Source: Phycisphaerae bacterium
Lineage (GTDB): Bacteria; Planctomycetota; Phycisphaerae; Sedimentisphaerales; Anaerobacaceae
NCBI GenBank assembly: GCA_017993835.1
Contig: JAGOLX010000044.1
Location: 1 to 50,074 of the forward strand
Direction of reading: 5' to 3'
DNA length: 50,074 nt
Both the position numbers and the translations under genes were made by a program. Shown piece after piece: positions 20,220 through 44,991 of this stretch. Numbering within the stretch: the first letter of the stretch is position 1; each line of letters begins with the position of its first letter. The notes beneath the pieces are model-generated. The model saw only the letters and a list, made by a program, of their open reading frames with translations. It did not search any database and had not been told where the DNA came from.

Positions 20220-20287
20220 TGAGGACGCCTGTCGAAAGGGGAACAAGAGAATCTGACGGTATCGTGGCTCATGCGAAAGGCTGTGGA

Positions 20288-21766: not shown

Positions 21767-22551
21767 CCCCGACGCGGCACAACGGATTCACCCTGGCGGA
21801 GGTCCTGGTGGCCTCGACTCTCAGCAGCTTCATCGCGATCGTCGCGGTCGGCGCGCTGAATGCCGTTCTGCGGACGTCGCAGACGGTCAACCAAGCCAGC
21901 GAGGTGAACGGCGAGGTCCGGTTCGCCGCCCGCATGTTGGCAAGGGACCTGGCCAACCTGTACCGGGATCCGAATCCGGAGAGCGTCAAGCTGGTGGGGG
22001 CTTCGCAGGGCTCGGACACGACGGGCCCGCCGTTCTTGACCTTTTACACGGTGGGACGGGCCCCGGCGCGGGCCGATCAGCCGGAGGGCGACGTCTATGA
22101 AGTCGAGTACTTCCTGGGAGGCAGCCGGGAGCTTGACGCCGAGGGCGGGTCCGACGAGCCGACGATTCTGTTCCGGCGGCTGTGGCCCAACCCGGACAAG
22201 GAGCGCGAGCCCGGCGGGATCTTGACGCCCGTCGCGGAGGGCATCGCGGTCTTCTACATTCGCTTCTCCGACGGCCAGGAATGGACGAACCAATGGACCG
22301 AGGAGATGCGAATCCTGCCCAAGCTGGTCGAGGTGACCCTGGGCACCGCGACGCCCGAGAAGGGCGATCCCGTCCTGGAGACATTCATGATTACGTTCCC
22401 TCGGATGGCCGAGGTCTCCGCAGGGCAGGCGCAGGAGGGTGAATCATCCGAAGGTCGGGAAGGCCGGCAGGAATCGACCTCGGGACCTTCGGACGAGTCC
22501 GGCAACGAGAACGCCCGCCCGACGGGCAACCAGGGACGGCGGGGGCGATAG
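21763..22551 (+). CDS. GspJ-like minor pseudopilin
   Basis: A 262-residue protein, ATG 21763 overlapping the previous stop. The prepilin signal is HNG-FTLAEVLVASTLSSFIA. The body contains FAARMLARDLANLYRD and VAEGIAVFYIRFSDGQEW, typical of GspJ. The C-terminal 45 residues are Ser/Glu/Gly/Arg-rich and probably disordered, an extension beyond normal GspJ. Confidence 0.8.
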   Translation: MTPTRHNGFTLAEVLVASTLSSFIAIVAVGALNAVLRTSQTVNQASEVNGEVRFAARMLARDLANLYRDPNPESVKLVGASQGSDTTGPPFLTFYTVGRAPARADQPEGDVYEVEYFLGGSRELDAEGGSDEPTILFRRLWPNPDKEREPGGILTPVAEGIAVFYIRFSDGQEWTNQWTEEMRILPKLVEVTLGTATPEKGDPVLETFMITFPRMAEVSAGQAQEGESSEGREGRQESTSGPSDESGNENARPTGNQGRRGR

Positions 22552-22553
22552 GC

Positions 22554-23891
22554 ATGAGAACGTACAAGGATAGCGCGAAGAGTGTCGGGGTGTCGCAGGG
22601 GAAACCTGCGAAGTCCAGGCCGGGCCTCGTCCTGGTCGCCGTGCTCTGGATGGTGGCCGTCATGATGGCCGTCGTCGCCGTGGTCGGCCGGACCGGCCGG
22701 CTGAATATGAAGATGTCCATGTCTGCCACGGACGAGGTCCGCTGCAAGTGGGCGTGCCGGGCGGGCATCGAGAACGCGATCGCGATTCTCAATGAGGATC
22801 TCAAAGACAGCGACTGTCTGTCGGATCTCTGGAGCGACAACGACGAGGATTTCAACGATGTGGCGCTCGAGCGGTGCCGGTACAGCGTGCGGGTGATCGA
22901 CGAGGCGAGCAGGCTGAACATCAACACCGCAACGAAGGACCAGCTCATGGCCTTGCCCTACATGGAGGCGGAGGTCGCCAACGCAATTCTGGACTGGCGG
23001 GACAATGACGACAATCCGCAGGCGGAAGGCGCCGAGGCGGGCTACTACGAGAACCTGAGCATCCCGTACAGGATTCGCAACGGGCCGTTCAAGACGGTGC
23101 GCGAGCTGCTCGCGGTCAAGGGGGTGACGCGAGAACTGTTGTATGGCGAAGACACGAACCTCAACGGCCTGCTCGACTCGAACGAACGGGACGGGGACCT
23201 GAGCCCGCCGTCCGACAACGGCGATCAGCAGCTCGACCAGGGCTGGATCGCCTATCTGACTTGCTACTCCTACGAGCGGAACGTGGATGCGGACGGCAGC
23301 AAGCGGGTCAACATCAACCAGGCGAATCAGCAGCAGCTTCAGGACGGGCTGGGCATCAGAGCCCCCCAGGCGAAATGGATCGTAGACAATCGCGGGCAGG
23401 GATACAAGAGCATTGGAGATCTGCTCAACGACAACAGCCCGGAGACCTCCTCGGGGAGTCCCAGCGGCAATCAGGACCAGGCGGAGCCGCTCGATAAAGA
23501 GACTTTCAGGCAGATCGCGGATCGCATTACGATCGCCGGCGAGGATCGTGTCCCCGGCAAGATCAACATCAATACGGCGTCGGTGGACGTGCTGGCCGCG
23601 TTCTTCGGCGGGGACGATCAGGCCCGTCAGACGGCACAGGCCATCGTCCTGAATCGGTCGAGCCTCCTGGAGGGGTTCACGAGTGTCGCCGATCTGCTGA
23701 GCCAGCAGTCCATGACGACCGAGCGGTTCAAGGCGGTCGCCGATCTGGCCACCGTCCGCTCGGATGTGTATACAATTCAGTGTCTTGCCGCAGCGGATGT
23801 CAGCGGGGCGCGCTTTCGGACGGAGTGCGTCGTGGATCGCAGCGCGTCGCCATGCACGATCCTGTATTGGTATCAGGGAGCTAACTACTGA
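22554..23891 (+). CDS. gspK: GspK pseudopilin tip protein
   Basis: A 445-residue protein. The prepilin-like signal is SRPG-LVLVAVLWMVAVMMAV, lacking Glu at +5 as is normal for GspK. Helix-hairpin-helix units recur (RLNINTATKDQLMALP, RVNINQANQQQLQDG, KININTASVDVLAAF), giving three copies rather than the usual one or two. The protein is longer than typical GspK (about 330). Its TGA overlaps the next ATG by one base. Confidence 0.85.
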   Translation: MRTYKDSAKSVGVSQGKPAKSRPGLVLVAVLWMVAVMMAVVAVVGRTGRLNMKMSMSATDEVRCKWACRAGIENAIAILNEDLKDSDCLSDLWSDNDEDFNDVALERCRYSVRVIDEASRLNINTATKDQLMALPYMEAEVANAILDWRDNDDNPQAEGAEAGYYENLSIPYRIRNGPFKTVRELLAVKGVTRELLYGEDTNLNGLLDSNERDGDLSPPSDNGDQQLDQGWIAYLTCYSYERNVDADGSKRVNINQANQQQLQDGLGIRAPQAKWIVDNRGQGYKSIGDLLNDNSPETSSGSPSGNQDQAEPLDKETFRQIADRITIAGEDRVPGKININTASVDVLAAFFGGDDQARQTAQAIVLNRSSLLEGFTSVADLLSQQSMTTERFKAVADLATVRSDVYTIQCLAAADVSGARFRTECVVDRSASPCTILYWYQGANY

Positions 23892-25354
23892 TGAGCAAAG
23901 GCGAAAGAATCCCGCATTCCGTGGTCGCGGCCGCGAGGGAAGACGGTCAATTCCGGGCGGTCGAAGTCCGCAGGCTGGATGGCCGTGTGGAGGTCGTGTG
24001 GATGCGCAGCGTGCCCGCGGAGAACCAGACGTGGAGCGGCTTCGCGGCCGAGTGCGGACTGGCGTCGCACGGAGACCGTCGGGACAGGACGGCGAAGAGA
24101 CACGCGCCGGCCGTGGTGGGACTCGACTCGACCGGCGTAGCGTTCTACCGGATCAACACGCCGCGAGTGGAAGAGCACGAGACCGCAGCGATCGTGAAGA
24201 TGCAGGCGGAATCGTTGCTCCCGCTGCCGGCGGACCAGATCGAGGTCGCATGGCGGACGTGCCCCTCGCACAACGGCAACATGGACATCACGATCGCCGC
24301 CGTGCGAAAGGAACACCTGGAGAAGTTCGTGGGCAGCGTGGAGGATTTCCGACCTCGCCACATCTTCCTGTCCTGTGAAGGGACGGCGAAAGCCTGGCAC
24401 GGGTTCTTCGCCGGACGGGAGCAAGAGGCGTTTCTCATCAGCTTGGGCACAGGGAATACGCAGGTATGCCTGGTTCAGAACGGCCTGGTCACGCGGGCGG
24501 GCGTGCTGGACGTGGGACTGTCCGATGTCGAGTTCTCCGGTCGCGGCGTGGAGCCTGGTCCGCCAACGGGAATCCTGGACCGTTTTGCCCGGGACGTACA
24601 GATCATGCTGTCGTCGCTCGGCTGGGATGAGACGAGTTCCCGACCGCTGCTCGTCCTCTCCGACGGGGGGCAGACTATCCAGGGGATTGTTGCGATGCTG
24701 GTCGCAGCCGGCTTGCCGGCCCAGGCGAGTGAGCCGCAGATCGAGCGTCTCAAGACGCCCGCGGGCTTCGGAAAACGCGAAGCGTATGAGTACCGCACGT
24801 CTCTGGGACTTGCGATGATTGCCCTGGAGAAGTCTTCGGCGGCCTTGGGACTCTTCGACCGCGTGCTGGAGGAACAGCGGCAGCAGAAGGCAGTCTCCGC
24901 CTGGCGATCCGTGGCCCTGGCGGGCGCCGCGGTTCTCATGATGTTGATTGCCTTGCTCGCGACGGTCTACGTCACGGACCTCGCCAGCGCCAGGCGGTGG
25001 GATGCGTTGGTGGAACAGCCCGAGTTCCAGGCGGCTCTGCAGCAGCAGTCGCTGGTCAAGACGGTGGCCCGGCACAGGCCGGATCTCCTCGAAATGCTGA
25101 CCGAGATCAACGCGGGCCAGAACGACGGGATCGTGCTGGACGGGCTGCTTTTCAAGAAAGGCTCCACGGTCACGCTCACCGGGCAGGCGGACAATATGGA
25201 GCAGATGTGGAAGTTTCAGGCGAATCTGCGAGCCCAGAAGGGGATCAAGGGCGCGGAGATTGCGAATGCCGCGCGGGATACCAAGACCAAGAAGGTCAAG
25301 TTCACGATTACGCTCGACTACAAGGAGTTCACGAAGAAGGGAGCTGCCCTGTAG
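23891..25354 (+). CDS. GspL-like PilM-PilN fusion
   Basis: A 487-residue protein. Residues 1-320 have the actin-like ATPase fold of PilM/GspL cytoplasmic domains (VVGLDSTGVAFYRI, SLGTGNTQVCLVQNG, LSDGGQ). Residues about 341-364 are a transmembrane helix (LAGAAVLMMLIALLATVYVT), followed by a PilN-like ferredoxin-fold periplasmic part (DGIVLDGLLFKKGSTVTLTG). The combination is what GspL is; it links the ATPase GspE to the periplasm. Confidence 0.8.
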   Translation: MSKGERIPHSVVAAAREDGQFRAVEVRRLDGRVEVVWMRSVPAENQTWSGFAAECGLASHGDRRDRTAKRHAPAVVGLDSTGVAFYRINTPRVEEHETAAIVKMQAESLLPLPADQIEVAWRTCPSHNGNMDITIAAVRKEHLEKFVGSVEDFRPRHIFLSCEGTAKAWHGFFAGREQEAFLISLGTGNTQVCLVQNGLVTRAGVLDVGLSDVEFSGRGVEPGPPTGILDRFARDVQIMLSSLGWDETSSRPLLVLSDGGQTIQGIVAMLVAAGLPAQASEPQIERLKTPAGFGKREAYEYRTSLGLAMIALEKSSAALGLFDRVLEEQRQQKAVSAWRSVALAGAAVLMMLIALLATVYVTDLASARRWDALVEQPEFQAALQQQSLVKTVARHRPDLLEMLTEINAGQNDGIVLDGLLFKKGSTVTLTGQADNMEQMWKFQANLRAQKGIKGAEIANAARDTKTKKVKFTITLDYKEFTKKGAAL

Positions 25355-25375
25355 CTCTTCGCAGGTGGAAGACCG

Positions 25376-25912
25376 ATGGCAAGAAGACTGAATACACGAG
25401 AGAAACGCGTGCTCCTGCTCGGAGCGGCGTCGGCGGTGCTCATCCTGATCTTCACGTATGGCTCGAAGGGATATGACTGCTGGACCGAGGCGCGGGCGAC
25501 CCTGTCCGCGGCCAAGCGGACGATCGGCGAGGTCGAGACGGACCGGAGCCGGCAGGCCGCCCTGGCGGCGCTGGTGCCTGTGTGCGAGGCCCCGCTGGTG
25601 GAGGACCAGCAGAAGTTCCTCTTCCGGGACCGACTGCACGAGCAACTGAAGAAGGCGGGCATCAACACGGAGCCCTTGCAGTTCCTGCCGGTGAGGAAGC
25701 CCAAGGGCGTCCCCTACAGGGTGCTGAAGATCAAGTGCAAGGGCAAGGGCAAGTTCGACCAGTTGCTCGACTTCCTGTCGCACCTGAACGAGAACCCCTA
25801 TCTGATCGGCGTGGAAGAGTTGCGGATCCAGTGCGATACGAAGGAGCCGCCGGAGAAGCGGAAAGACAAGGAGATCCAGATCGACCTGACGGTGAGCACG
25901 TTCGTCAAATGA
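25376..25912 (+). CDS. GspM/PilO-like membrane protein
   Basis: A 178-residue bitopic protein. The basic N-terminus and transmembrane helix (about 12-30, VLLLGAASAVLILIFTYG) precede a coiled-coil stretch (AKRTIGEVETDRSRQAAL) and a C-terminal ferredoxin-like domain (PYRVLKIKCKGKGKFDQLLD). This is the layout of GspM/PilO, the partner of GspL/PilN that precedes it. Confidence 0.75.
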   Translation: MARRLNTREKRVLLLGAASAVLILIFTYGSKGYDCWTEARATLSAAKRTIGEVETDRSRQAALAALVPVCEAPLVEDQQKFLFRDRLHEQLKKAGINTEPLQFLPVRKPKGVPYRVLKIKCKGKGKFDQLLDFLSHLNENPYLIGVEELRIQCDTKEPPEKRKDKEIQIDLTVSTFVK

Positions 25913-25949
25913 CATCGTGCGTCAGCGGAAAGAGAGGATTCATCGAGAC

Positions 25950-26690
25950 ATGCAGGTGAGAACAGGAGACATCCATCACGATGGGCGGGTCCCGCGGCTC
26001 CTGGCGGCAGCGGCGGTGCTGCTCGGCGTCTCCGCCTTCGCCAAGGTGGCGGCCTTCTACGTCGAGCGGGGACAGATCCAGGGTCTCGCTGGCCTGGCCC
26101 GGATCGGGGACGAGCCCAACGGCTTGGCGGGGTACCAGGACCAGGCGAAGAAAGCGGCCGAGGCGATCAAACAGAAGAATCTATTCATCAAGGAACCGCC
26201 CAAGGAGCACCCAATCAAACAGGTGGATGGGATTCTCGGCGACGAGGCGTTCATCGCAGGCCAATGGTACAAGGCCGGCGGCAAGGTAGGCGACGCCAAG
26301 ATCATCGAGATCGGGCCGACCTATGTGAAGGTCGAGTGGGAGGGCAAGGAGCAGAGCTTTGCCCCGATCGGCGCCGCGGTCTCTGCGCCCTCGGCACCGC
26401 CGCCGGCGCCGAAGGAGGTCAATAAGGAGCCGGCGCCCGAAGCGCCCAAGCCCGAGGCCAAGGCGGCGCCTGCGAAAGAGGCGACGCCGGAGCCTGTCGA
26501 ACCGGACGATCCCCTCGCGTGGCTCAATGTGAGAATGTCCGCTCGCTTGAAGGCCTTCCTGGTGGAGAAGTGGAATGGAGCTTCGGAAGAAGAAAAGGCC
26601 AGGGCCAAAGAGGAATGGAACCGGATGTCCGACAGTGACAAGCAGAGGGCGATCGATCAGATGGAAAGCCATGTAGATGAAATGCGATGA
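25950..26690 (+). CDS. GspC/PilP-like protein 1 with Pro/Ala/Glu-rich linker and C-terminal helices
   Basis: A 246-residue protein. ATG 25950 is chosen (GAGAGGA lies about 12 bases upstream); a GTG at 25917 is possible. A transmembrane helix (about 14-32) is followed by a GspC HR/PilP-type block: KKNLFI-x3-PKEHPIKQVDGILGDEAFI, GQWYKAGGKVGDAKIIEIGP, VKVEWEGKEQSF. This is the domain that contacts the secretin. Then come a 55-residue Pro/Ala/Lys/Glu linker and a helical tail (SEEEKARAKEEWNRMSDSDK). A paralogue follows immediately. Confidence 0.75.
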   Translation: MQVRTGDIHHDGRVPRLLAAAAVLLGVSAFAKVAAFYVERGQIQGLAGLARIGDEPNGLAGYQDQAKKAAEAIKQKNLFIKEPPKEHPIKQVDGILGDEAFIAGQWYKAGGKVGDAKIIEIGPTYVKVEWEGKEQSFAPIGAAVSAPSAPPPAPKEVNKEPAPEAPKPEAKAAPAKEATPEPVEPDDPLAWLNVRMSARLKAFLVEKWNGASEEEKARAKEEWNRMSDSDKQRAIDQMESHVDEMR

Positions 26691-27348
26691 TCGACATCAT
26701 GACCGGACCGAATCCTACACCCGCGGTCTGCTGGCCGTGGCGGTGCTTCTGGGTGCGTTGGTTCTTCTGAGGATCGCGGGGTTCGTGACAGCGTCCGCCC
26801 AAGCCCGCGCCATGGCTGCCACGGCAGACCCGAACGGGCGGGGTGTTGCAGAGGTGGGCAAGCTGCTGGCCGGCGCCCAGGCGTGTGCGGAGGAACTCAA
26901 GAAGAAGAATCTGTTCATCGTTGTTCCGCCGAAGCAGCATCCGGTCGGCGAGGTGCGCGGCATCCTGGGCGAAGAAGCCCTCATCAACGGCCAATGGTAC
27001 AAGGCCGGCGACAGCGTGGAAGACGCGAAGATCGTCGCGATTGAGCCGACCAAGGTTCGAGTTGCCTGGAACGGCCAGGAGACGGAGTTCCTGCCCATTG
27101 CCTCTGCCAGCGTCGAAGGAGGATCCGAGCGGTCGGGACCGCCCTCTCGCGGCGAGCGGTCGGGCCCGCGGCGAGGTCCGACATCGGTAATGACGGGCTC
27201 TCGCGGGGCTGCGCCGGGGCAGATGCAGGGCCGTCCCTCCCCTGAGGAGATCAACAAGATGCGGGAACGAATGCAGAACATGAGCCCGGAGGAACGAAGG
27301 CGGGCCATGCAAGAGATGCGTCAGAGATTTGAGGCGAGACCTCAGTAG
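26677..27348 (+). CDS. GspC/PilP-like protein 2
   Basis: A 223-residue paralogue of the previous protein, its start overlapping that gene by 14 bases. The transmembrane helix is LLAVAVLLGALVLLRIAGF. The matching block is KKKNLFI-x3-PKQHPVGEVRGILGEEAL, GQWYKAGDSVEDAKIVAIEP, VRVAWNGQETEF. The linker is Gly/Ser/Arg/Pro-rich instead of Pro/Ala/Glu-rich, and the helical tail contains NMSPEERRRAMQEMRQRF. Two C-like subunits in one operon suggest hetero-oligomers or alternative secretin contacts (inference). Confidence 0.75.
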   Translation: MKCDDRHHDRTESYTRGLLAVAVLLGALVLLRIAGFVTASAQARAMAATADPNGRGVAEVGKLLAGAQACAEELKKKNLFIVVPPKQHPVGEVRGILGEEALINGQWYKAGDSVEDAKIVAIEPTKVRVAWNGQETEFLPIASASVEGGSERSGPPSRGERSGPRRGPTSVMTGSRGAAPGQMQGRPSPEEINKMRERMQNMSPEERRRAMQEMRQRFEARPQ

Positions 27349-27374
27349 TCCCTGTTCAGGAAAGGTTTGTCTGA

Positions 27375-27827
27375 ATGAAGTCACCAAATGCCATCGCAAC
27401 CGTCATTTTGATCGTCGCGGCGCTTATCGCGGCGTATGCCATTGGTCTGCTGATTCGCCAAGCCAGGGTGGGAGATTCGTCCTCCCTTACCCCCGGTGCG
27501 GCAGAGGTCAATGAAACTCGCATCCGCGAGAGCACCGCGGCGCTGGACCACGCTCCAGGAACCGGGCAGTCACAGGATTCGCAGCAGGCCCGGGCGAAAC
27601 TCAAGCAGAAACGCACCGAAGACCTCCAGAAGATGGAGTCGGCGACGGAGGAACAGAAGGAGCAGTTCCGAGAGAGAATCCGGGACCGTTTCAGCGCGGA
27701 CCCGAACGCCAGGGCAGCCAAGAGACGCCCCGTGAGAGGCGCGGTGCCCGCGGCGACTCCGGCGACGCAGGACCCCAACGCGGGCTCCCAGGACGAGAAG
27801 GCCGGCTCGGATCCCAACGGCCGGTGA
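27375..27827 (+). CDS. Small anchored protein of the secretion operon
   Basis: A 150-residue protein with an N-terminal transmembrane helix (about 6-27, IATVILIVAALIAAYAIGLL). The periplasmic part contains a charged helical segment (SATEEQKEQFRERIRDRF) like the tails of the two preceding proteins, then a Pro/Ala/Asn-rich tail. There is no GspC-type block. It is not a recognised family; position suggests an accessory subunit of the secretion apparatus. Confidence 0.65.
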   Translation: MKSPNAIATVILIVAALIAAYAIGLLIRQARVGDSSSLTPGAAEVNETRIRESTAALDHAPGTGQSQDSQQARAKLKQKRTEDLQKMESATEEQKEQFRERIRDRFSADPNARAAKRRPVRGAVPAATPATQDPNAGSQDEKAGSDPNGR

Positions 27828-27878
27828 GAGTGGATTGCTGGATGAAACGCTAACACTGGATTGAAGTGAGGTGACACC

Positions 27879-30800
27879 TTGGAACGGTCAAAGATAGTTT
27901 TGTGGGTTCTGGTCCTTGTCGCGGCCGGTGTGATCATCTGGTGGGTGGGGTTCCGTCCGCCGGCGCCGGACCTGCCCCGCGTCGAACGGAAGGGGGGGGC
28001 CCTCGCGGGCGCCAGGGTGTCTGCGCCCAACGAGCCGAACTCGCCCGAGAGCGACACGGCGCCTGCGGATGCGAACCAGCCGGGGGACAAGGATCCGAAC
28101 CAGCCGAAGGTGCAGGCCGGTGCGCCGGAGCCCAACGCGCCTCCGAAGCCGGAAGCAGAGAAACCCTCGGAGGCGAAGCCCGCGAAGGCCGAAGTCCCGG
28201 AGGACCCGAACGATCCGCTGGAGGCGGTCAATCTCAAGGACGTCGAGATGAAGAACATCATCGAGAAGATCGCCCAGTGGACCGGCAAGGCGGTCATTCC
28301 CAGCGACGAGGCCATGAAGCAGAAGATCACGATCTATGCGCCGGACAAGCTGCCTCGGAGCAAGGCTCTGCTCAAGATCTACAGCGCCCTGCGAATGAAA
28401 GGCTTCACGCCGGAAATCGTGGACGACACGATCTTCCTCAAGCCGCTCAGCGAGGCCCGATTGGGAGTCCATCCGATCGTTCCCCCGGATCAGCCGCTGG
28501 CGGCCTTCGAGAACTCCGCTCAAATCGTGCAGAAGCTCTTCAAGCTGGCCAATTACCCTCCCGCCCAGATGGCGGAGATCGTCCGCCCGTTGATTGGCGA
28601 GTACGGGCACGTGGGCGCCGACGAGACGACCGGGACGCTGCTGGTGATCGACACGGTGGGGAACCTCATGCGGATCGAGAGCATCATCACGCAGTTCGAC
28701 GTCCCCGACGCCGGCAAGATCGCCACGGAGATCTTCGAGATTCACACTGGAGACCCGACGGAGATGGTCCAGGTGCTTCGTCTGCTCCTGGGTGGCACAG
28801 CAGACGGTCGCAGGGGCGGACAATTGCGGAGCAGCGGGACCTCCTCCCGACCGGCCAGTCAGTCATCCGGCGGCAGCGGCAAGGGCGCCACGTCCGTGGT
28901 CATCGGCGTGGGCGACATCCCCATCGTTCTGATCCCGGAGCCCAAGCGCAAGTGGATCATCGCCCGCGCGTCGCCGGAGACCATCAAGCAGATCGGCGAG
29001 TGGATCGCGAAGATGGACAAGGAACAGCCAATCGCGCCGGAGTACGAGACGGTTTCCATCGTCTACGCCAATGTGGATGAGGTCGCGCGCCGGATTCAGC
29101 AGTCTCTGGAGGACATGCCTGGCAGCGAGCTGCGTCCCAACGTGCTGGTCCAGCCGCTTTCGCAGACGCGGCAGATCATGATCTTCGGCCGGGCCGATCT
29201 GCGGCAGATGATCAAGAAGCTGATTGCCGAGGTCGACGTGATGCCCGGGCAGTTCCTGACGGAGGTCTTCGATCTCAAGCACGCCGACCCCGATCAGATC
29301 AAGACGAACATCGAGGGCTTGTATGAATCGCAGTCGGGCACCTCGTACAGCTACGGCTATCGCAGCTCGCGATACCGTGACATCCAGCCGAGCGAAACCG
29401 TGAAGGCCATCTCGTATCCGTCGATGGGACAGATCACGGTGATCGCGTCGGCGGAGAACATGGAGAAGATCCGCAAGCAGATTGCGGACTGGGACGTGCC
29501 CCTGGATGTGGACCAGGTCAAGCCGAGGATCATCGAACTGAAGAACTCCGATCCCGTCCAGATGGCGCAACTGCTGACGAAGCTGTTCTCCGAGGACTCG
29601 GAGGGCAGCAGCTCGCTGTTTCGCATCTTGTACTACGGCTATGACGAGATGGAGCAGAAGAAGAAGATCATCGGTCCGCTGTACGGGCAGTTGACCTTCG
29701 AGGAGGTCCCGGGGACCAAGAAGATCATCGTGATCAGCAAGATTCCCCAGGCGTATGAGGTGATCGAGCAGTTGATTATGGAACTGGACCGGCAGGAGAT
29801 GGCGGAGATCCCGCACGTCGTCCAGATCAAGTACGCCGACACCGAGGATCTCACGGAGCGGCTCAACGCCATGTTCAACGAGCAGGGGACGCCCGCGCCC
29901 ATTCGCCGGACGACCCGGGGCATTGGCGATTACTCTATGGACAGCGGCGACGAAGGGCAGAACCAGAACAGCCCTCGCAACAACCCCTCCAACAACAGCC
30001 GACAGAACAACGCGGATACCTACACGCCGCCCTGGTCTTCGGGAGGCGCGAGGCGGATGACGAATGAAGAGCCGATCAGCAACGTGATCGGACGGGTCCG
30101 GTTCATTCCGGACCCAAGGAGCAAGTCCATCCTGGTGCTGGCGCCCCCCGAGTTCCAGAAGAGCATCGAAGAGACGATTCGGCAGTTGGACGTGCCGGGC
30201 AAACAGGTCATGGTCAAGGCCGTGGTTGTCGAAGTGGACCACCAGGATATGACCTCCCTGGGCGTGCAGTTGTCGTCGAATCCCGCGGACACCTTCTCGG
30301 TCGGCGAGAACGGCATGACCGCCCTGGGCGAGCTGACGTATCTTCAGGAGCGAGGCTCCGCCACGATCGAGGTGGGAACCAGCGTCACGGGTCTGCTGGA
30401 CCTCCTGGTGAAGAAGGTCAATGCCAAGATCCTCAACCAGCAGTCGCTGTGGACCGAGGACAACGAAGAGGCGAGCTTCTTCAAGGGCCAGAGGATCGCG
30501 TTCCAGACGAGTTCCACGACTTCGGAGACGGGGATCAGCCGGACGCAGAACTTCGACTATCAGGATGTCGGCATGACGCTCGCCGTGCGGCCCAGCATCA
30601 CGCCGGAGAAGAATGTCGATATGATGGTCACCGTGCTGCTGTCCGACCTGACGGGCGACTCGACCAATGGCCAGCCCAACAGGCGAGTCATGAACAGCAC
30701 GACAAACATGATCGTGCAGAACGGCCAGACCCTCATGCTGGGAGGCATTCTCTTCCAGACGGACAGCAAGATCGAGAGAAAGGTCCCACTCCTGGGCGAC

Positions 30801-31013
30801 GTGCCGCTCTTGGGCGAGTTGTTCAAACATCACGACGTCAGGAAGGCGAACAACGAGCTGATCGTGTTCATCACTCCGTATGTGATGGACGAGGAAACGT
30901 CCGAAACGACCAAAGCGGAAATCATCGAGCAACCGAAGCAGAAACTGGAGACGGTTGAGGGCGAATTGAAGCAGATGTCTGAGGACTTGGAAGAGGCTCT
31001 GGAGAAGGACTAA
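27879..31013 (+). CDS. gspD: GspD-type secretin with expanded N-domain array
   Basis: A 1044-residue secretin, started at TTG 27879 with GAGGTG upstream. It has an uncleaved-looking N-terminal helix (7-25), a Pro/Glu/Asn linker (30-110), an N0-like domain (113-190) and about six further N1/N-type domains (near 211-277, 283-382, 388-455, 459-540, 547-635, 642-772), each showing the (I/V)xxLxxAD/(D)P...L...L pattern followed by IVIA/VI(A/S)-type strands. The secretin barrel occupies about 775-1003, with MVKAVVVEVDHQDMTSLGVQ and the closing LMLGGILFQTDSKIERKVPL, LLGDVPLLGELFK. Typical GspD is 650-700 residues with N0-N3, so the periplasmic stack here is much longer. It closes the operon. Confidence 0.9.
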   Translation: MERSKIVLWVLVLVAAGVIIWWVGFRPPAPDLPRVERKGGALAGARVSAPNEPNSPESDTAPADANQPGDKDPNQPKVQAGAPEPNAPPKPEAEKPSEAKPAKAEVPEDPNDPLEAVNLKDVEMKNIIEKIAQWTGKAVIPSDEAMKQKITIYAPDKLPRSKALLKIYSALRMKGFTPEIVDDTIFLKPLSEARLGVHPIVPPDQPLAAFENSAQIVQKLFKLANYPPAQMAEIVRPLIGEYGHVGADETTGTLLVIDTVGNLMRIESIITQFDVPDAGKIATEIFEIHTGDPTEMVQVLRLLLGGTADGRRGGQLRSSGTSSRPASQSSGGSGKGATSVVIGVGDIPIVLIPEPKRKWIIARASPETIKQIGEWIAKMDKEQPIAPEYETVSIVYANVDEVARRIQQSLEDMPGSELRPNVLVQPLSQTRQIMIFGRADLRQMIKKLIAEVDVMPGQFLTEVFDLKHADPDQIKTNIEGLYESQSGTSYSYGYRSSRYRDIQPSETVKAISYPSMGQITVIASAENMEKIRKQIADWDVPLDVDQVKPRIIELKNSDPVQMAQLLTKLFSEDSEGSSSLFRILYYGYDEMEQKKKIIGPLYGQLTFEEVPGTKKIIVISKIPQAYEVIEQLIMELDRQEMAEIPHVVQIKYADTEDLTERLNAMFNEQGTPAPIRRTTRGIGDYSMDSGDEGQNQNSPRNNPSNNSRQNNADTYTPPWSSGGARRMTNEEPISNVIGRVRFIPDPRSKSILVLAPPEFQKSIEETIRQLDVPGKQVMVKAVVVEVDHQDMTSLGVQLSSNPADTFSVGENGMTALGELTYLQERGSATIEVGTSVTGLLDLLVKKVNAKILNQQSLWTEDNEEASFFKGQRIAFQTSSTTSETGISRTQNFDYQDVGMTLAVRPSITPEKNVDMMVTVLLSDLTGDSTNGQPNRRVMNSTTNMIVQNGQTLMLGGILFQTDSKIERKVPLLGDVPLLGELFKHHDVRKANNELIVFITPYVMDEETSETTKAEIIEQPKQKLETVEGELKQMSEDLEEALEKD

Positions 31014-36970: not shown

Positions 36971-37606
36971 TTTCTGCCTCCTTCTTCCGATTGAAGACTG
37001 AAAGGGAACCCCGCTCCGGCTACACACCCGAGGGGCTTACAGTTCCCGGCGGGGAAGCGCCTGCCGTACCGTTGCGCACGCCTGCCGAGCATCCATCCAC
37101 CTGTCATAACCGCTGTGTACTTCCGTGACCCTGGAGGGCCACTGCGCAGAACCCAAGCCCAAAGAGATGGCATCCCTCGCCAAACAACAGAAAACACATC
37201 CCTGTGTCAATCAGAGACCATACACACCCTGCCTCCCGCGTTGGCTCTCTTCGAGAGCCGATCCCGCCAAGTCTCACCGTTACCACAATTGGCCGCAGAA
37301 AGCAACGGGGAAGTTGCCGTATCCGCAAAAAAAATTCCCCTGTGGTTTGCCTCGGCCTGACATTTGTCGCGCGGTTCTCAGAAGGACCGGTCAGACACCC
37401 GGTCAATTCAACTTATCTTGTCTTGTCATCCTGCTTGAATCACGCGCGGCGCTCCGCTACAATGACACGCTCTGGGGTCTGCAACCTCCGGGAGGGGCGT
37501 TCGTCGGACGTCCCGGATGCAGAACGCAGCCAAATCGGTCTTGGGGTGGGGAAGGAGTCGCCTGCCTCTCGGGCACGGCACGCAGGCAATGAAAGGGATG
37601 AGTCTC
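36971..37606. other. Intergenic region between two divergent genes
   Basis: About 635 bases. It contains the aldo/keto reductase promoter (37435-37463) and no recognisable gene. GGGAACCCCGC and GGCGGGG around 37007-37060 could pair into a hairpin in the leader of the minus-strand gene. The rest shows nothing I can name. Confidence 0.45.
37435..37463 (+). promoter_or_regulatory. Promoter of the aldo/keto reductase gene, TTGAAT-N17-TACAAT
   Basis: TTGAAT (37435-37440) and TACAAT (37458-37463) are spaced by exactly 17 bases. The leader to ATG 37607 is about 137 bases. Confidence 0.65.
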
Positions 37607-38539
37607 ATGGACAGGCACGCACACGTTTCCAGGGGTCGAATTCACCAATTCAGTCGTCGTCAGTTCGTGGGCGCATCGCTGGGGGCGGCCCTTGCGGCAG
37701 GGACGAAGTTCGTCTCGGCGGCGCAAACGCCTGCCGGCTCGTCACCCGCCACGCAGGTCGTGACGCTCGGACGGACGGGCATCAAGGCGTCTCGCCTGGC
37801 CCAGGGCACCGGCTGGAACGGCTCGGCACGATCTTCCGCACACACCCGCCTGGGCGAGAAGGCATTCAACGAGCTGATCCGCCACGGCCTAGAGCGGGGC
37901 ATCGCCTTCCTGGACGCCGCCGATCTGTACGGATCGCACCCCTATCTGCGCACGGCGCTCAACGGCGTTCCGAGGGACAAGTACATCCTGCTCAGCAAGA
38001 TCTGGCCGCGAACGGAGTATTGGAATCTCGCCTCCGGCGGGGCGCGGGCCGAAGTGGATCGATTCCGCAGAGAACTGAACTCCGATGTGATCGACATCTG
38101 CCTGATCCACTGCATGACGAACGGCAACTGGCCCAACGAGCACGAGCGGATCCGCGATGAATTGTCCGAGCTGAAGGCCAAGGGGGCGGTCCGCGCCGTC
38201 GGCGTGTCCTGCCACGATCTGGGGGCGCTGAAGGCAGCTTGCACACACCCGTGGACGGACGTCGTCCTGGCCCGCATCAACAATGTGGGCAAGGAAGCCG
38301 CCATGGATGGTTCGGTCGAGGAAGTCTCGCCGATTCTCAAACAGGCGCGGGCCGACGGGAAGATGATCCTCGGCATGAAGATCTTCGGCGCCGGCAAGCT
38401 GACGAGCCCGGAGCAGAAAGACGCTTCGCTCCAATACGTCTGGGGCAATGGTCTGGTGGATGCGGTTACGATCGGGATGCTCAGCATGGAACAGATCGAC
38501 GACACGATCGAACGGATGAACCGGGCCCTGAGCGCCTGA
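37607..38539 (+). CDS. Tat-exported aldo/keto reductase
   Basis: A 310-residue protein. ATG 37607 has AAAGGG nine bases upstream and gives a twin-arginine signal, FSRRQFVGASLGAALAAG (Arg17-Arg18); upstream ATGs at 37589 and 37598 are alternatives. The mature part is an aldo/keto reductase: LGRTGIKASRLAQGTG at the barrel start, catalytic Asp103 and Tyr108 in FLDAADLYGSH, Lys131 in LLSKIW and His168 in CLIHCM. These enzymes reduce carbonyls with NADPH; Tat export of folded, cofactor-loaded enzyme is consistent. Substrate unknown. Confidence 0.88.
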   Translation: MDRHAHVSRGRIHQFSRRQFVGASLGAALAAGTKFVSAAQTPAGSSPATQVVTLGRTGIKASRLAQGTGWNGSARSSAHTRLGEKAFNELIRHGLERGIAFLDAADLYGSHPYLRTALNGVPRDKYILLSKIWPRTEYWNLASGGARAEVDRFRRELNSDVIDICLIHCMTNGNWPNEHERIRDELSELKAKGAVRAVGVSCHDLGALKAACTHPWTDVVLARINNVGKEAAMDGSVEEVSPILKQARADGKMILGMKIFGAGKLTSPEQKDASLQYVWGNGLVDAVTIGMLSMEQIDDTIERMNRALSA

Positions 38540-38581: not shown

Positions 38582-38610
38582 TTGCCGCCGGAGGCGAAAT
38601 GTGCTACAAT
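38582..38610 (+). promoter_or_regulatory. Promoter of the CotH-like gene, TTGCCG-N17-TACAAT
   Basis: TTGCCG (38582-38587) and TACAAT (38605-38610) are 17 bases apart, about 90 bases upstream of the ATG at 38700. Confidence 0.6.
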
Positions 38611-38699
38611 GGATCACTGCTGGGCGAGGCGGTGTCGCGTTGGCTTCGCGGACTGCCGGGAGCCCTCTGCAAGGAGCGGTGTTCGAACTTGGTAACGCG

Positions 38700-41600
38700 A
38701 TGAAGTCTGCTCGTGGGGCACTTTGGGTCGGTGCGGTCAGCCTGTCCTGTCTTGTGGGGGTGTTGACGGCGGGCGCTGTGCCGGTAGCCCTCTGTGACGA
38801 CCTCCTGGCGAACGCATTCGATTCACGAGGCACGGGGCTGATCCGCTGTGCGGGCGAGAACGGCCCGATCATCACCGAGTTCGTCGCCTCCAACAGGGAT
38901 AGCCTGATCGACTCCTACGGGGAGTCCTCCGACTGGATCGAGATCTTCAACCCGACCTCCGAGACAATGAACCTGGAAGGCTGGTTCCTCACGGACGAGC
39001 TGGACGACCTCGCGAAGTGGCAGTTCCCGGCGGTTGAGCTTGCGCCGGGGGGGTATCTCGTTGTCTTCGCTTCGGGCCGGGATATGCGGGACCCGGCGGG
39101 CCAGCTTCATACGAGTTTCTCGCTCCAGGCCGAGGGGGAGTCCCTTGCCCTCGTCGAGCCCGACGGCTGGACCATCGCCTTCGCCTACCCCGACTACCCG
39201 CCGCAACTGGTGGACATTTCCTACGGCCTCAGCGGTGGCGGCGTGTCGCAGACCGAGACCCTCCTGATTGCCCAGGGTGCGCCCGCAAAAGCCCTGATCC
39301 CGACCGGCGCCGGCCTTGGCGAGATGTGGAGGCAAAAGGGATTCGACGACTCCGCATGGCTGACCGGCACGACGGGCGTCGGCTACGACTACCCCGGGTA
39401 CACGGGCCTGGACGTGGCGGCCATGCGGAATGTCAACCAGACGGTGTACGTACGGATTCCGTTCGATGCGCCCGAAGCGACGGACATCGACAAGCTGCTC
39501 CTGAGGATGCGATACGAGGACGGCTTCGTCGCCTGGCTCAATGGCTTGGAAGTTGCGCGGGCCAGCGCGCCGGCGACGTCGCAACTGGCCTGGAACTCCG
39601 GCTCGACCTCCAACCGGGAGGACGCGGACGCTGTCGAGGTCCAGGAGTCTGATATTACCCCCTACAAGGTTGTCTTGGCCGCGAGCGGGAATGTCCTGGC
39701 GATCCAGGGCCTCAATTCCAGCCTGAGCAGTTCCGATCTACTGATCCTGCCGGAACTGGTCGCCGTTCAGACGGAGGAGATCGACCTGGACGAGGTGATT
39801 GAGAGCTATCTTTTGGAGCCGACGCCAGGTGCGGCCAATCAGGGGTCCTTTGCGCAGATGGGGCCTGCGATTCGGAACGTCACGAAGAACCCGCTGCCTC
39901 CGTCGGCCCAGGAGGATCTGATCATCACGGCCGAGGTCTCTCCGGCGCTGGCGCCCGTTCGCGAGGTCCGATTGCTGGTCCGCGTGAACTACGCGGCGCA
40001 CAACCCTGCGGAGGGCCTGCCCATGGTCGATGACGGCACGGGGGCCGATGCCGCCGCAGGGGACGGGGTCTACACCGCGACGATTCCGTCCGAGTCCTAC
40101 GACGCCGGCGACATGGTCCGCTGGTGCGTGACGGCCGAGGACGTCGACGGCAAGGCCTCTCGCGATCCGCTCTTCCCCCATCCAGGCGACTGGCCCCAGT
40201 ACTACGGAACGGCGGTCCATGACCCTGTGATTATGAGCCAACTGCCGGTCCTGCGGTGGTTCACCGAGAGCCCAAGTGCTGCGGCGACGCGAAGCGGGAC
40301 GCGGGCCTCGGTCTTCTTCGACGGCGAGTTTTACGACAACGTCTTTGTCCGCCAGCGGGGCGGATACACCGTTGGCTCCGGCTCGAAGAAGTTCGTCTTC
40401 AACAATGGATACAAGTTCCGCTTCTCCGACGACTACGATCGCGTCAAGGAGTTCAACTTGAACCAGAACGGGAGCGACGCCAGCTACATCCGCCAGCCGC
40501 TCGCGTTCGAGACGCATCGGCTGGCGGGCTGCCCTGCGTCCTTGTCCTTCTTCATGCTGTCGGTGCTCAATCAGAGTGTGGAGGGCGCGAGGATCTTCAT
40601 CGAGCAGGTCGATGAGGCGTTCCTCGAACGCAACGACCTCGATCCTCGCGGCGCCCTGTACAAATTCGTTCAGCGGTCGCAGATTACGCCGGTGTTTAAC
40701 GACATCAACTCGGGCATCGAGAAGAAGACGCGGGAATATGAGGACTTCTCGGATATCGCGGCGGTCGTCGCGGGCCTGAAGGCGGCGACCGAGGAGCAGC
40801 GGAGGATCTTCGTCTTCGACCATTTCGACGTGCCCGAGATGCTCAACTACCTCGCGGCGCGGTGCCTCCTGCAGGACACAGACGACATCCGCAAGAACTT
40901 CTACTTCTACTGTGACACGGAGGGCACCGGTGAATGGTCCATCTTCCCCTGGGACAAGGACTGGACCTTCGGCGTCGTGGGCGATGGGTGGATCTACACA
41001 TCGCATCCCTTCCTGGGCGACAAAGCTCACGCCAAGAACGACGGCCTGCAGTGGAGCATCTTCCTGGACGTGATGTACAATCTGCCCGAGACGCAGGAGA
41101 TGTTCCTCCGACGGACGCGGACCGTGATGGATGAACTGCTCCAGACGACGAGCACGCCGCTCGCCCGGAGGTACTTCGAGAGCCGGATCGACGAGATCTA
41201 TGTGCAGGCCCGTGCCAGCCTGGGAAACCTCGACTCCGCAGTCAACTCGCTCAAGAGCTACTTCCCCACGCGCCGGACGCAGCTCTATATCACCTACAAC
41301 GTCGCCAACACGACAACCGTGCCGGCCGGCGGCAATCCCGGCATTCCCGACGCGCAGCCCGAGCGGGTGACGATCCGCTTCGGCAACTTCGAGTACGATC
41401 CCTCCTCAGGCAATCAGGATGAGGAGTATGTCGAGTTGGTGAACCCGAACTCCTATGCCGTGGACCTCTCCGGCTGGCGGCTGGCCGGCGGGATCGAGCA
41501 CACATTCCGGCTTGGGACCGTCCTCATCGCCGGCGGTACGCTCTGCGTCTCGCCCGATGTCCGAACCTTCCGCAGCCGAGCCGAAAGCCCCACCGGCGGG

Positions 41601-41729
41601 CAGGGCCTCTTCGTCCAGGGCAACTACAAGGGCCATCTATCCAATTCGGGCGAGACCGTCGAACTGATCGACCAGAACGACGACGTCGTGGACACGCTGG
41701 TCTACGACGGCGCTTCGGGCGGTCACTGA
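38700..41729 (+). CDS. Secreted CotH-kinase-like protein with two lamin-tail domains
   Basis: A 1009-residue protein. ATG 38700 begins a signal peptide (MKSARGALWVGAVSLSCLVG). No good ribosome site is adjacent, and an in-frame GTG at 38679 is an alternative. An N-terminal lamin-tail domain (about 50-140) includes IITEFVASNRDSLIDSYGES, SDWIEIFNP and GYLVVFASG. A beta-sandwich follows (about 190-350), with VYVRIPFDAPEATDIDKLLL. The CotH-like domain (about 510-840) shows RQRGGYTVGSGSKKF, FNLNQNGSDASYIRQPLAFE and the acidic motif FPWDKDWTFG. A second lamin-tail domain closes the protein (about 885-1009), with EEYVELVNPNSYAVDLSGW. CotH is an atypical protein kinase in Bacillus spores; secreted bacterial relatives are common but uncharacterised. 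Confidence 0.85.
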   Translation: MKSARGALWVGAVSLSCLVGVLTAGAVPVALCDDLLANAFDSRGTGLIRCAGENGPIITEFVASNRDSLIDSYGESSDWIEIFNPTSETMNLEGWFLTDELDDLAKWQFPAVELAPGGYLVVFASGRDMRDPAGQLHTSFSLQAEGESLALVEPDGWTIAFAYPDYPPQLVDISYGLSGGGVSQTETLLIAQGAPAKALIPTGAGLGEMWRQKGFDDSAWLTGTTGVGYDYPGYTGLDVAAMRNVNQTVYVRIPFDAPEATDIDKLLLRMRYEDGFVAWLNGLEVARASAPATSQLAWNSGSTSNREDADAVEVQESDITPYKVVLAASGNVLAIQGLNSSLSSSDLLILPELVAVQTEEIDLDEVIESYLLEPTPGAANQGSFAQMGPAIRNVTKNPLPPSAQEDLIITAEVSPALAPVREVRLLVRVNYAAHNPAEGLPMVDDGTGADAAAGDGVYTATIPSESYDAGDMVRWCVTAEDVDGKASRDPLFPHPGDWPQYYGTAVHDPVIMSQLPVLRWFTESPSAAATRSGTRASVFFDGEFYDNVFVRQRGGYTVGSGSKKFVFNNGYKFRFSDDYDRVKEFNLNQNGSDASYIRQPLAFETHRLAGCPASLSFFMLSVLNQSVEGARIFIEQVDEAFLERNDLDPRGALYKFVQRSQITPVFNDINSGIEKKTREYEDFSDIAAVVAGLKAATEEQRRIFVFDHFDVPEMLNYLAARCLLQDTDDIRKNFYFYCDTEGTGEWSIFPWDKDWTFGVVGDGWIYTSHPFLGDKAHAKNDGLQWSIFLDVMYNLPETQEMFLRRTRTVMDELLQTTSTPLARRYFESRIDEIYVQARASLGNLDSAVNSLKSYFPTRRTQLYITYNVANTTTVPAGGNPGIPDAQPERVTIRFGNFEYDPSSGNQDEEYVELVNPNSYAVDLSGWRLAGGIEHTFRLGTVLIAGGTLCVSPDVRTFRSRAESPTGGQGLFVQGNYKGHLSNSGETVELIDQNDDVVDTLVYDGASGGH

Positions 41730-41823
41730 CATTCTCCCTCCAGGCTGGTCAGACAAACCTCGCGTGTGGTACAATCCGGCGCGTGTCAGGAATGCACTCT
41801 GTTGGTGTCTGTGCGGAAGGAGT

Positions 41824-44800
41824 ATGAGCGTGCCGGTCGGACGATGGTTGTTGGTGGCGACCCTTGCGGTCGCAGCTTTGTCGCAGCCGGTCCCGGTTGC
41901 CCGAGCGGTTGCCGACCCTCCACGGGCGATGTTCGAGTACCAATGCGGAACCCTCCGTGCGGCTATTGAAGACCTTGTCGCGACGCACGGACGACGGTAT
42001 CCGAACGGCAGCGGCTATCTCCGCCGGCTCGACGAGTTGGTCGCCGACCCGACGGGGCTCGCCTCGCGACAGGATGCAGTGGAGCGGCTCCGACACGAGG
42101 CGCTGCTGTCGAACCCGCTGTTCGAGTTTGAGAAGGTGCTCGTGGTCAAGCGCGGGACCGTGCCCGAAGAGGCATCGGGCGCGGAACTGGGATTGCCCTC
42201 GAACGACCGGTGCAATTCGTCGCTGCCCCGCGACGGGTACGACAACGAGATCGCTGCGCTGTCTCTTATTCGACCCGACGCGGAGTTGACGACCCTGTAT
42301 CGGCCTGCTGGCGGCGGCTACGTTGGCGAGATGGACCTGCACTGGGACGCCGACCGACTGCTGTTCTCCCAATCGGATGCAACCAACTGGAAACTGTGGG
42401 AGATCCGCGTGGACGGGACTGGCCTGTGGCAGGTCTCCCGGATGCCCGACGATGTGGACAGCTTCGACGCGTGCTATCTGCCCAGCGGGCAGATCGTGTT
42501 CGGCTCGACCGCATCGTTTCAGGCTGTCCCGTTCGGGGACGGCGTGAACCGGGTCGCGAATCTCTACGTGATGAATGCCGATGGTTCCGGCGTCCGGCAA
42601 CTGTGCTTCGACCAGGGGCACGGTCTGCACCCGGGTGTGCTCGCGAATGGACAGGTGCTCTATTCGCGATGGGACCACGCGGGCGTCAACCATCTCTTCC
42701 TGCGCCTCCTGACGGCGCTGAACCCGGACGGGACGGCCCAGCGGGCGGTCTACGGCGGCAATTCGTGGTTCCCCAACGCACTGTTCTTCCCGCGGCCCTT
42801 GCCCGGTCGCAGCGACAGGCTGGTCTGCATCCTCTCGGGCTGTCACGGCGTACACAGGATGGGCGAGCTCGTGCTCGTCGATACGAGTCGCGGGTGGTTC
42901 GAGGGATCGGGTCTGGTCCGGCGGATCTCCGGACGGGGCGACTCCGTCGAGCCGAGGATCGCCGACCGTCCGGTCGAGGGCGACTGGCCGAAATTCCTGC
43001 ATCCATACCCTTTGAGCGACAAGCATTTCCTCGTCGCCTGCCGGCCCGACGCGAAGGCCAACTGGGGAATCTATCTGGCGGACACGTTCGACAACCTCGT
43101 CTTGATCCGCGAGGAGCCGGGTTACGCACTCCTGGAGCCGATCCCGATCATGAAACGGGTCAGGCCGCCCGTGCCGGTCGACCGGGTGAATCTCGAACGC
43201 AAGGACGGCATCGTCTATCTGCACAGCGTGTATTCCGGCCCCGGCCTGGCCGGCGTTCCGCGAGGGACGATTCGCAGCCTCCGCATAGTCGCCTACGACT
43301 TCAGTTACCCCGGGTCGGCGGGTCCGAACCTCATCGGGAGGGGGGGACCTTGGGATGTCGTGCGGATCATCGGCACGGTCCCGCTCGAAGAGGATGGTTC
43401 CGTGACGTTCCGCGTGCCCGCCAATACGCCACTGGCGGTGCAGGCCCTCGACCGCGAGGGCAAGGCGGTGCAGATGATGCGCAGCTCGTTTGCGGTCAGG
43501 CCGGGCGAGACGTTCTCCTGCGTCGGTTGCCACGAGACGCCGGCCCAGGTCACGCCCTCGCAACTGGCGCTGGCAATGTATCGCGAGCCACGTGAGATCG
43601 ATCCTTGGCGCGGTCCGGCCCGGGGTTTCAGCTTCGCCCGCGAGGTGCAGCCCGTGCTGAATCGGCATTGCGCGAGCTGCCATGACGGCAGGGCGGCCCA
43701 GCCCGATCTGCGACCACATCCGCAATCAGCCCGCGATCCGGGCGGCGTCGGGAAGTTCACGCCCGCGTATGAGTCGCTGATCCCCTACGTCCGGCGCATC
43801 GGGATCGAAGACGACGTGAGCTTACTGACGCCGGGCGAGTACCATGCGGACACGAGCGAGCTGGTCCAACTCCTTCGCAAGGGCCATCAAGGCGTCCGGC
43901 TCGACGCGGAGGCGTGGGACCGAATCGTCACCTGGATCGATCTGAATGCCCCATGCCACGGGACGTGGCGCGAGGCCTCCCCGATTTCCGGCGGCGTCCA
44001 CACCCGCCGGATGGAGCTGCGAAAGGCCTATGGCGGCCCGCTGGACGATCCGGAGGCGATTCCCGATTGTCCGAGATATGACGAGACGCCGCTCGAGCCG
44101 GCGCCGTTGCCCACGTGTGAGCCTGTGACGGCGGCGGGAGCGCCGTCCTTCGAGCGGATCGAGAGGACCGTCGAACTGGCGAAAGGCGGGACGTTGAAGC
44201 TCGTCCGCATCCCGGCGGGCGAGTTCGTCATGGGCGACGCGGCGGGAGAGCCCGATGAACGCCCCCCTCATCGGGTCCGAATCGAGGCGCCCTTCTGGAT
44301 GGGCGAGTGCGAGATCACGAACGCCCAGTTCCGGGCGTTTCAGCCGGACCACGATGGTCGGTACTATCAGAAACGACATGCTCGGCCCGACGACCAGGGG
44401 ATTCCGCTGAATGCCGCCGAGCAGCCGGTTGTCCGCGTCTCGTGGGAGCAGGCGACGGCGTTCTGCCGCTGGCTCAGCGAGCGGACGGGGATGAGATTCT
44501 CGCTGCCCACCGAGACGCAGTGGGAGTACGCCTGTCGCGCGGGGACTGCGACGCCGCTGTCCTATGGCGCGGTGGACGCCGATTTCAGCTTCTGGGCGAA
44601 TCTGGGCGACCTGTCGTTTGCCGATCCGGGCACGGGCGCATTCTCCGCGACTACCGGCGGGATCGAACACCCGGTCCTGGAAGGCGCCGGACTCAGCGAC
44701 CGACGATTCAATGATGGGTTCGTCGTGACAGCTCCTGTGGGACGATTTCGTCCGAATTCCTGGGGCCTTTACGACGTGCACGGCAATGCTGCCGAGTGGA

Positions 44801-44991
44801 CTTCCTCAGACCATAGGACATATGAGACGGATGGGACGGATACGACAGATGCCGGCCGGGACGGTCGAAAGGTCGTTCGCGGCGGCTCGTTCTCCGACCG
44901 GCCCGAGCGATGCCGCAGCGCATTTCGTCTGGCTTATCCCCCCTGGCAGCGGGTTTTTAACGTGGGTTTCCGCGTTGTCTGCGAAGACTGA
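41824..44991 (+). CDS. Diheme HZS-alpha-like beta-propeller protein fused to an FGE-sulfatase (SUMF1) domain
   Basis: A 1055-residue secreted protein. ATG 41824 lies only one base from GGAAGGAG, and GTG 41830, two codons further, may be the real start; a signal peptide follows in both cases. Residues about 90-560 resemble the hydrazine synthase alpha-subunit middle domain, a propeller with blades such as YVGEMDLHWDADRLLFSQSD, LHPGVLANGQVLYSRWDHAG and GDWPKFLHPYPLSDKHFLVA. Two c-type heme motifs follow, CVGCH (566-570) and CASCH (616-620). Residues about 790-1055 form an FGE-sulfatase domain (LVRIPAGEFVMGDAAGEPDE, PTETQWEYACRAGT, GLYDVHGNAAEWT, VVRGGSFSDRP). It is not evidence of anammox; such fusions occur in heterotrophic planctomycetes with unknown function. 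A TACAAT hexamer lies at 41770-41775. Confidence 0.8.
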   Translation: MSVPVGRWLLVATLAVAALSQPVPVARAVADPPRAMFEYQCGTLRAAIEDLVATHGRRYPNGSGYLRRLDELVADPTGLASRQDAVERLRHEALLSNPLFEFEKVLVVKRGTVPEEASGAELGLPSNDRCNSSLPRDGYDNEIAALSLIRPDAELTTLYRPAGGGYVGEMDLHWDADRLLFSQSDATNWKLWEIRVDGTGLWQVSRMPDDVDSFDACYLPSGQIVFGSTASFQAVPFGDGVNRVANLYVMNADGSGVRQLCFDQGHGLHPGVLANGQVLYSRWDHAGVNHLFLRLLTALNPDGTAQRAVYGGNSWFPNALFFPRPLPGRSDRLVCILSGCHGVHRMGELVLVDTSRGWFEGSGLVRRISGRGDSVEPRIADRPVEGDWPKFLHPYPLSDKHFLVACRPDAKANWGIYLADTFDNLVLIREEPGYALLEPIPIMKRVRPPVPVDRVNLERKDGIVYLHSVYSGPGLAGVPRGTIRSLRIVAYDFSYPGSAGPNLIGRGGPWDVVRIIGTVPLEEDGSVTFRVPANTPLAVQALDREGKAVQMMRSSFAVRPGETFSCVGCHETPAQVTPSQLALAMYREPREIDPWRGPARGFSFAREVQPVLNRHCASCHDGRAAQPDLRPHPQSARDPGGVGKFTPAYESLIPYVRRIGIEDDVSLLTPGEYHADTSELVQLLRKGHQGVRLDAEAWDRIVTWIDLNAPCHGTWREASPISGGVHTRRMELRKAYGGPLDDPEAIPDCPRYDETPLEPAPLPTCEPVTAAGAPSFERIERTVELAKGGTLKLVRIPAGEFVMGDAAGEPDERPPHRVRIEAPFWMGECEITNAQFRAFQPDHDGRYYQKRHARPDDQGIPLNAAEQPVVRVSWEQATAFCRWLSERTGMRFSLPTETQWEYACRAGTATPLSYGAVDADFSFWANLGDLSFADPGTGAFSATTGGIEHPVLEGAGLSDRRFNDGFVVTAPVGRFRPNSWGLYDVHGNAAEWTSSDHRTYETDGTDTTDAGRDGRKVVRGGSFSDRPERCRSAFRLAYPPWQRVFNVGFRVVCED

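Follow-up and report, generated by a model that had tools for sequence, protein, structure and literature searches.

An HzsA-like diheme protein fused to an FGE-type domain in a Phycisphaerae genome, and its conserved family outside anammox bacteria

The origin of hydrazine synthase (HZS), which to our knowledge is chemically unique, is debated. Homologues of its alpha subunit, HzsA, have been described outside anammox bacteria in clades I-IV (Hagglund et al. 2025, PMC12758564); according to the accessible parts of that study they are few, lack Tyr591 and are co-located with fused HzsBC-like genes, and those of clade I also lack His772. Genes resembling hzsABC were reported from Phycisphaerae metagenome-assembled genomes (MAGs) of the Oslofjord, and the sections of that study available to us propose a broader family of enzymes acting on other substrates (PMC10732223). 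The protein described here resembles the members of clades I-IV and the Phycisphaerae MAG proteins in being HzsA-like and non-anammox, but it belongs to a family whose members carry a fused FGE-type domain and are far more numerous than the proteins covered in the accessible parts of those studies (PMC12758564, PMC10732223). The word 'sulfatase' does not occur in the accessible main text of either study, nor do 'formylglycine' or 'SUMF1' in that of PMC10732223. HzsA homologues outside anammox are thus already published, and the fusion with an FGE-type domain is a variant for which no description was found in the open-licence literature searched, an earlier one elsewhere being possible.

The fusion gene lies in a stretch of 50,074 nucleotides that was analysed as a whole and is called the window here (Table 1). 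A preliminary description of this DNA had read the gene as joining an HZS-alpha-like propeller, two heme sites and a SUMF1-type domain, and that reading was right because Pfam matches to HZS_alpha and FGE-sulfatase and two CXXCH motifs are present. The propeller is seen by structure match and without a Pfam match, and cytochrome c Pfam matches are weak and below cutoff, the best at residues 626-652. An extracellular location, which had been put forward as conceivable, gains support from the signal sequence recognised by eye, and the protein is putatively secreted.

Table 1 Features of the fusion gene and of other genes in the window
Feature	Position	Strand	Remarks
HzsA-like/FGE fusion gene, whole open frame	41764..44991	+	1075 aa; likely start ATG 41824 or GTG 41830
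Sec-type signal sequence MSVPVGRWLLVATLAVAALSQPVPVARA	41824..41907	+	begins at ATG 41824; by-eye sequence inspection
Beta-propeller, HZS-alpha/TolB-like, residues ~121-500	42124..43263	+	structure match to 5C2V_A and TolB
HZS_alpha middle domain PF18582, residues 501-591	43264..43536	+	Pfam, E 1.1e-26
Heme alphaI motif CVGCH, residues 586-590	43519..43533	+	sequence motif and alignment
Heme alphaII motif CASCH, residues 636-640	43669..43683	+	sequence motif and alignment
His708, candidate distal ligand of heme alphaII	43885..43887	+	invariant, 79/79 members
FGE/SUMF1-fold domain PF03781, residues 813-1072	44200..44979	+	Pfam, E 3.3e-47; Asp1045 replaces first catalytic Cys
LTD-CotH-kinase protein	38601..41729	+	directly upstream of fusion; same neighbour in G005 and G006
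Aldo/keto reductase	37517..38539	+	upstream of CotH; twin-arginine-like N-terminus (by eye)
NapC/NirT-type NrfH cytochrome	13748-14437		nrfHA-like pair
NrfA, cytochrome c552 nitrite reductase	14561-16018		nrfHA-like pair

An AlphaFold model of the protein, built from 79 sequences and containing no hemes (pLDDT 91.3, pTM 0.90), has hydrazine synthase alpha (5C2V_A) as its top match in the PDB (Foldseek, E 1.2e-26), and VIA-align superposes the two at Z 33.5 and 3.0 A over 558 residues (model residues 72-689, which are protein residues 121-738). Profile-profile comparison with 12 true HzsA proteins (hhalign) gave a probability of 99.8% and an E value of 2.6e-28. What is predicted, with confidence, is a complete HZS-alpha scaffold of propeller, middle domain and C-terminal cytochrome c domain, on which the two CXXCH motifs are placed as in HzsA (5C2V; PF18582, NF052339). 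The remaining C-terminal part has an FGE/PvdO fold in the model, with PDB matches to Treponema variable protein 1 (Z 30.0), which we take to be a putative ligand-binding protein, and to PvdO (Z 29.8), PorK (Z 26.0) and FGEs (Z ~25-26).

A GTDB scan returned at least 575 relatives among at least 584 pattern matches, and the best 80 loci, which were analysed here with gene positions from a simple open-frame picker and no gene finder, are all fusions extending to the end of the FGE domain. The two heme motifs are conserved far above chance across these homologous loci: exactly two CXXCH occur in the aligned region in 80/80, with a spacing of 50 in 74. By their record titles, fifty of the loci are assigned to Planctomycetota, 15 to Verrucomicrobiota, three each to Lentisphaerota and Hydrogenedentota and one each to Armatimonadota, Pseudomonadota, Nitrospirota, Kiritimatiellota and Sumerlaeota, with four unassigned; most come from MAGs, and the lone unusual phyla may be binning errors. 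Many of the fusions (L081, L162 and L204 among them) exceed 1300 aa through an extra N-terminal stretch of ~300 residues that the window protein lacks and that had no Pfam match in the three proteins scanned.

For comparison with true HzsA, anammox genes were located with the NCBIfam model NF052339 (E 1e-80) in 17/294 genomes of the phylum, and twelve loci were used. The alignment of the fusion family comprises 79 members, namely 78 of the 80 loci (L138 and L144 were left out as truncated) and the window protein, and its HzsA residue numbering (H587, Y591, H689, H772) matches that printed in the accessible parts of PMC12758564 and PMC12607021. The CXXCH motifs of the fusion protein line up with those of true HzsA, and Cys586, Cys589, His590, Cys636, Cys639, His640 and His708 are invariant in 79/79 members. 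Unlike HzsA, the fusion protein has Ala594 in the column of Tyr591, where Tyr occurs in 0/79 members, and none of the 79 has a Tyr within 8 residues after the first heme motif. The zinc ligand Cys303 is also missing in 79/79, replaced by Asn in 77; this residue is variable in some anammox lineages too, as stated in the accessible text of PMC12758564. The spacing of the two motifs is 50 residues in the fusion protein versus 102 in HzsA, and an insert of ~50 residues between the hemes of HzsA is missing. His708 is offset by one residue in the alignment from HzsA His772, the distal ligand of heme alphaII, and is therefore only a candidate for that role. From the sequence, heme alphaI of the fusion protein is predicted to have a ligand set unlike that of HzsA. 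The additional C-terminal FGE-type domain is a further difference from HzsA, as is the lack of adjacent hzsB and hzsC in the window.

The overall fold, the two hemes and a beta-gamma-like gene elsewhere in the genome might be taken to mean that the protein is a true hydrazine synthase alpha subunit, from an unrecognised anammox bacterium, but we regard this as extremely improbable. Membership in hydrazine synthase was rejected because tests for the defining ligands showed them to be missing (Tyr591 and Cys303, each in 79/79), and the lost insert speaks against it as well. The fusion protein scores 58.2 bits with the NCBIfam hydrazine_alpha model, below the cutoff of 800, and the window's genome has zero matches to that model at E 1e-80, versus the 17/294 phylum genomes with one. 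Judged by its sequence, the fusion protein is no hydrazine synthase, and the family probably has a redox role other than hydrazine synthesis. We caution that hzsA matches alone should not label such MAGs as anammox.

The C-terminal domain shares with the SUMF1/FGE family (PF03781; FGE, PvdO, PorK/GldK and Treponema variable protein 1) its fold (Z 25-30) and the family motifs, but differs from it in lacking the copper Cys pair and in having a heme protein attached at the N-terminal side. In alignment to a Streptomyces FGE, the catalytic copper Cys pair (C336/C341 in the human enzyme) falls on Asp1045 and Cys1050. Of the 79 members, 74 have Asp at the first position, two have Thr, two Asn and one Glu, with Cys in none; at the second, 39 have Ala, 30 Cys, seven Ser, two Thr and one Gly. 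Because the complete pair is retained in no member, copper-dependent formylglycine formation is unlikely; we rejected an active FGE, and formylglycine generation by this domain is probably not to be expected. Its fold neighbours suggest, by analogy, a binding role.

It could be argued that the FGE domain is catalytic all the same, either activating sulfatases via formylglycine or oxidising a bound substrate, with the heme part supplying electrons or oxygen. The clear FGE fold, the ~26 sulfatase genes of the window's genome (28 match rows) and a sulfatase-cluster gene directly before the fusion in four loci (L128, L131, L132 and L136) would fit such a role, but we consider it quite improbable given the substituted Cys positions and the distribution of sulfatases, which are about as rare near the fusion as far from it (4/86 near neighbours vs 3/86 distant genes). 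The near set was drawn from 127 genes on the same strand only (the first 95 in locus order minus nine beta-gamma or MauG-like genes), and the far set from 214 genes on either strand, shuffled (113 minus one MauG-like gene and the last 26). No sulfatase gene lies on the window's contig. The association with sulfatases that the preliminary description had suggested surveying is therefore not above background, and the link was rejected.

The strongest functional link of the fusion, not noticed in that description, is to an HZS beta-gamma-like gene. It is the commonest other neighbour family, found in 20 loci, and encodes a protein that combines a propeller with a diheme part; three genes of this cluster that are MauG-like without a propeller (L146, L188 and L189) were dropped before the count of 17. 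In joining a propeller to two hemes it resembles both the HZS beta-gamma fusion (NF052342) and MauG/CCP diheme proteins, but it differs from the former in scoring 139-177 bits with the NCBIfam model hydrazine_BC in 4/4 proteins tested, where the cutoff is 1250, and in being absent beside the window's fusion gene. A model of one such protein matches HZS beta (5C2V_B) at Z 42.3, the next propeller reaching 36.1. The diheme part is poorly predicted (pLDDT <50 at residues 416-483) and the HZS gamma chain is not among the 50 matches listed for this model, so the NCBIfam match is the basis for identifying that part.

Within the DNA examined, the beta-gamma-like gene is near the fusion in 17/80 named loci, and in 13/80 it is on the same strand and adjoins the fusion or is separated from it only by an HzsA-like gene, often with overlap; it was not found in 63/80 loci, 26 of the 80 having <2.2 kb on one side. 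In the window's own family it accompanies 14 of the 36 fusion loci examined (the window's included, and one interrupted by a contig end), a set that has several contigs in common with the 17/80. The named loci and the family loci share contigs more generally (for example L127/L075, L137/L079 and L139/L086), and their counts should not be treated as independent. In G005, CotH is followed by the fusion and, with a four-base overlap, the beta-gamma-like gene, and the order in G006 is identical. Co-occurrence extends to whole genomes: across the 89 genomes of the family, 46 have both HZS_alpha and beta-gamma-like genes, three only the former, four only the latter and 36 neither (Fisher p 6e-17), and in genomes of at least 3.7 Mb the corresponding numbers are 42, 1, 1 and 6 (p 3e-6), p values that overstate independence because the genomes are related. 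The beta-gamma-like gene was present in 32/32 fusion genomes of the family (counted by hand, among the matches listed).

On balance, and with modest confidence, we favour the reading that the fusion protein supplies the alpha-like component of a periplasmic redox complex that is HZS-like but non-anammox, its FGE domain being of a recognition type. The protein would be exported and carry two covalently bound hemes c on the HZS-alpha scaffold, with heme alphaI ligated by the histidine of its own CXXCH motif in place of Tyr591, and with heme alphaII bis-His ligated (His640/His708) and acting as an electron relay. The FGE-fold domain, without its copper Cys pair, may serve as a substrate- or partner-binding module. 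To judge from the operons of relatives, the family would have originated as the alpha-like member of an HZS-like complex whose partner is the beta-gamma-like propeller/MauG-type diheme protein, and the complex would exchange electrons with periplasmic cytochromes and oxidise or reduce something besides ammonium plus NO.

The window itself contains no beta-gamma-like gene, and the sole copy found in its genome is on another contig (C62) and is divergent (35-49% identical to the query, in pieces); the partnership may therefore be loose or lost there. The gene beside this copy, called an aldo/keto reductase by eye, was set aside as dissimilar to the window's one, its only match being to a TAT signal. 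The copies found in six fusion-bearing genomes of the window's genus (G000, G073-G076 and G078) are all divergent. These observations suit a different reading, that the protein is a diheme cytochrome acting on its own at the surface or in the periplasm, its HZS-alpha scaffold only transferring electrons, with no beta-gamma complex in the window's organism and with the FGE-fold domain, together with the CotH/LTD neighbour, anchoring it to glycans or other proteins. The position of CotH/LTD directly next to the fusion in the window, G005 and G006 and the fold match to Treponema variable protein 1 are compatible with it, but in many relatives the fusion gene overlaps beta-gamma genes within operons, and this and the tight co-occurrence across genomes argue against it, and we hold it to be plausible, if somewhat doubtful. 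The complex with a beta-gamma-like partner is the reading we retain. The fusion family suggests that Planctomycetota and Verrucomicrobiota have a periplasmic redox system yet to be characterised, and a large conserved family that combines an HZS-alpha scaffold with different heme ligands, and with an operonic beta-gamma-like partner in many relatives, offers many testable proteins.

HZS_alpha is present in 49/89 genomes of the window's family, and the window's genome alone has six HZS_alpha genes, one of them fused. In a quick tree of 58 rows, with SH-aLRT support only, 26 labelled fusions and two further rows that end in an FGE-type domain form one clade (support 100), so that a single fusion event is the simplest reading of these sequences. 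Next to it stands a clade of unfused HzsA-like genes (99) that includes a gene of the window's genome on contig C26, and true HzsA is distant. HzsA-like genes occur in tandem arrays next to the fusion in L077, L078, L088, L154 and L190, some with a third CXXCH. A phage origin is without support because the viral contigs searched yielded no fusion and a single HzsA-like locus, which matched residues 163-728. More speculatively, and on the whole unlikely in our estimation, PVC and some other bacteria might possess a large class of HZS-like alpha/beta-gamma redox complexes that has gone unrecognised, the alpha subunit having acquired its FGE-fold recognition domain a single time before radiating. 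Such complexes would catalyse a novel hemoprotein reaction, with a substrate that is not ammonium plus NO, and would belong to the broader enzyme class that provided the scaffold for anammox hydrazine synthase.

The nrfHA-like pair noted in the preliminary description as handling nitrite and ammonium is indeed present in the window; it lies ~26 kb from the fusion, and a nitrite/ammonium link is unsupported. Among the matches listed, NrfA occurs in 11/32 fusion genomes versus 4/57 others of the family, mostly in two genera, and the excess is gone in genomes of at least 3.7 Mb (11/30 vs 4/20, p 0.35). The proposed survey of nrfA co-occurrence thus gave no significant excess over background in large genomes, and the link was rejected. 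A search with PF13447 (HAO-type) returned zero matches in the window's genome, as did its control everywhere.

Gene order in the window runs from the aldo/keto reductase through CotH to the fusion, followed by response regulators on the opposite strand, and one other genome has a gene 63% identical to this aldo/keto reductase ahead of its fusion. In L162, L164, L203 and L204, and partly in L170, from genomes labelled Phycisphaerae, Nitrospiraceae and Hydrogenedentota, the fusion lies in an operon, missing in the window, of DhaL, an aldolase, a small secreted-type gene, the fusion, the beta-gamma-like gene and a RidA-type gene, which hints at carbon metabolism in these relatives. Elsewhere in the window, positions 17067-31013 hold a Type II secretion/type IV pilus-like cluster (GspE, F, J and K, a PilN-like protein and a secretin), and a single frame at 1549-3360 combines sigma-70 regions 2 and 4 with a beta-lactamase-family domain, an unusual fusion.
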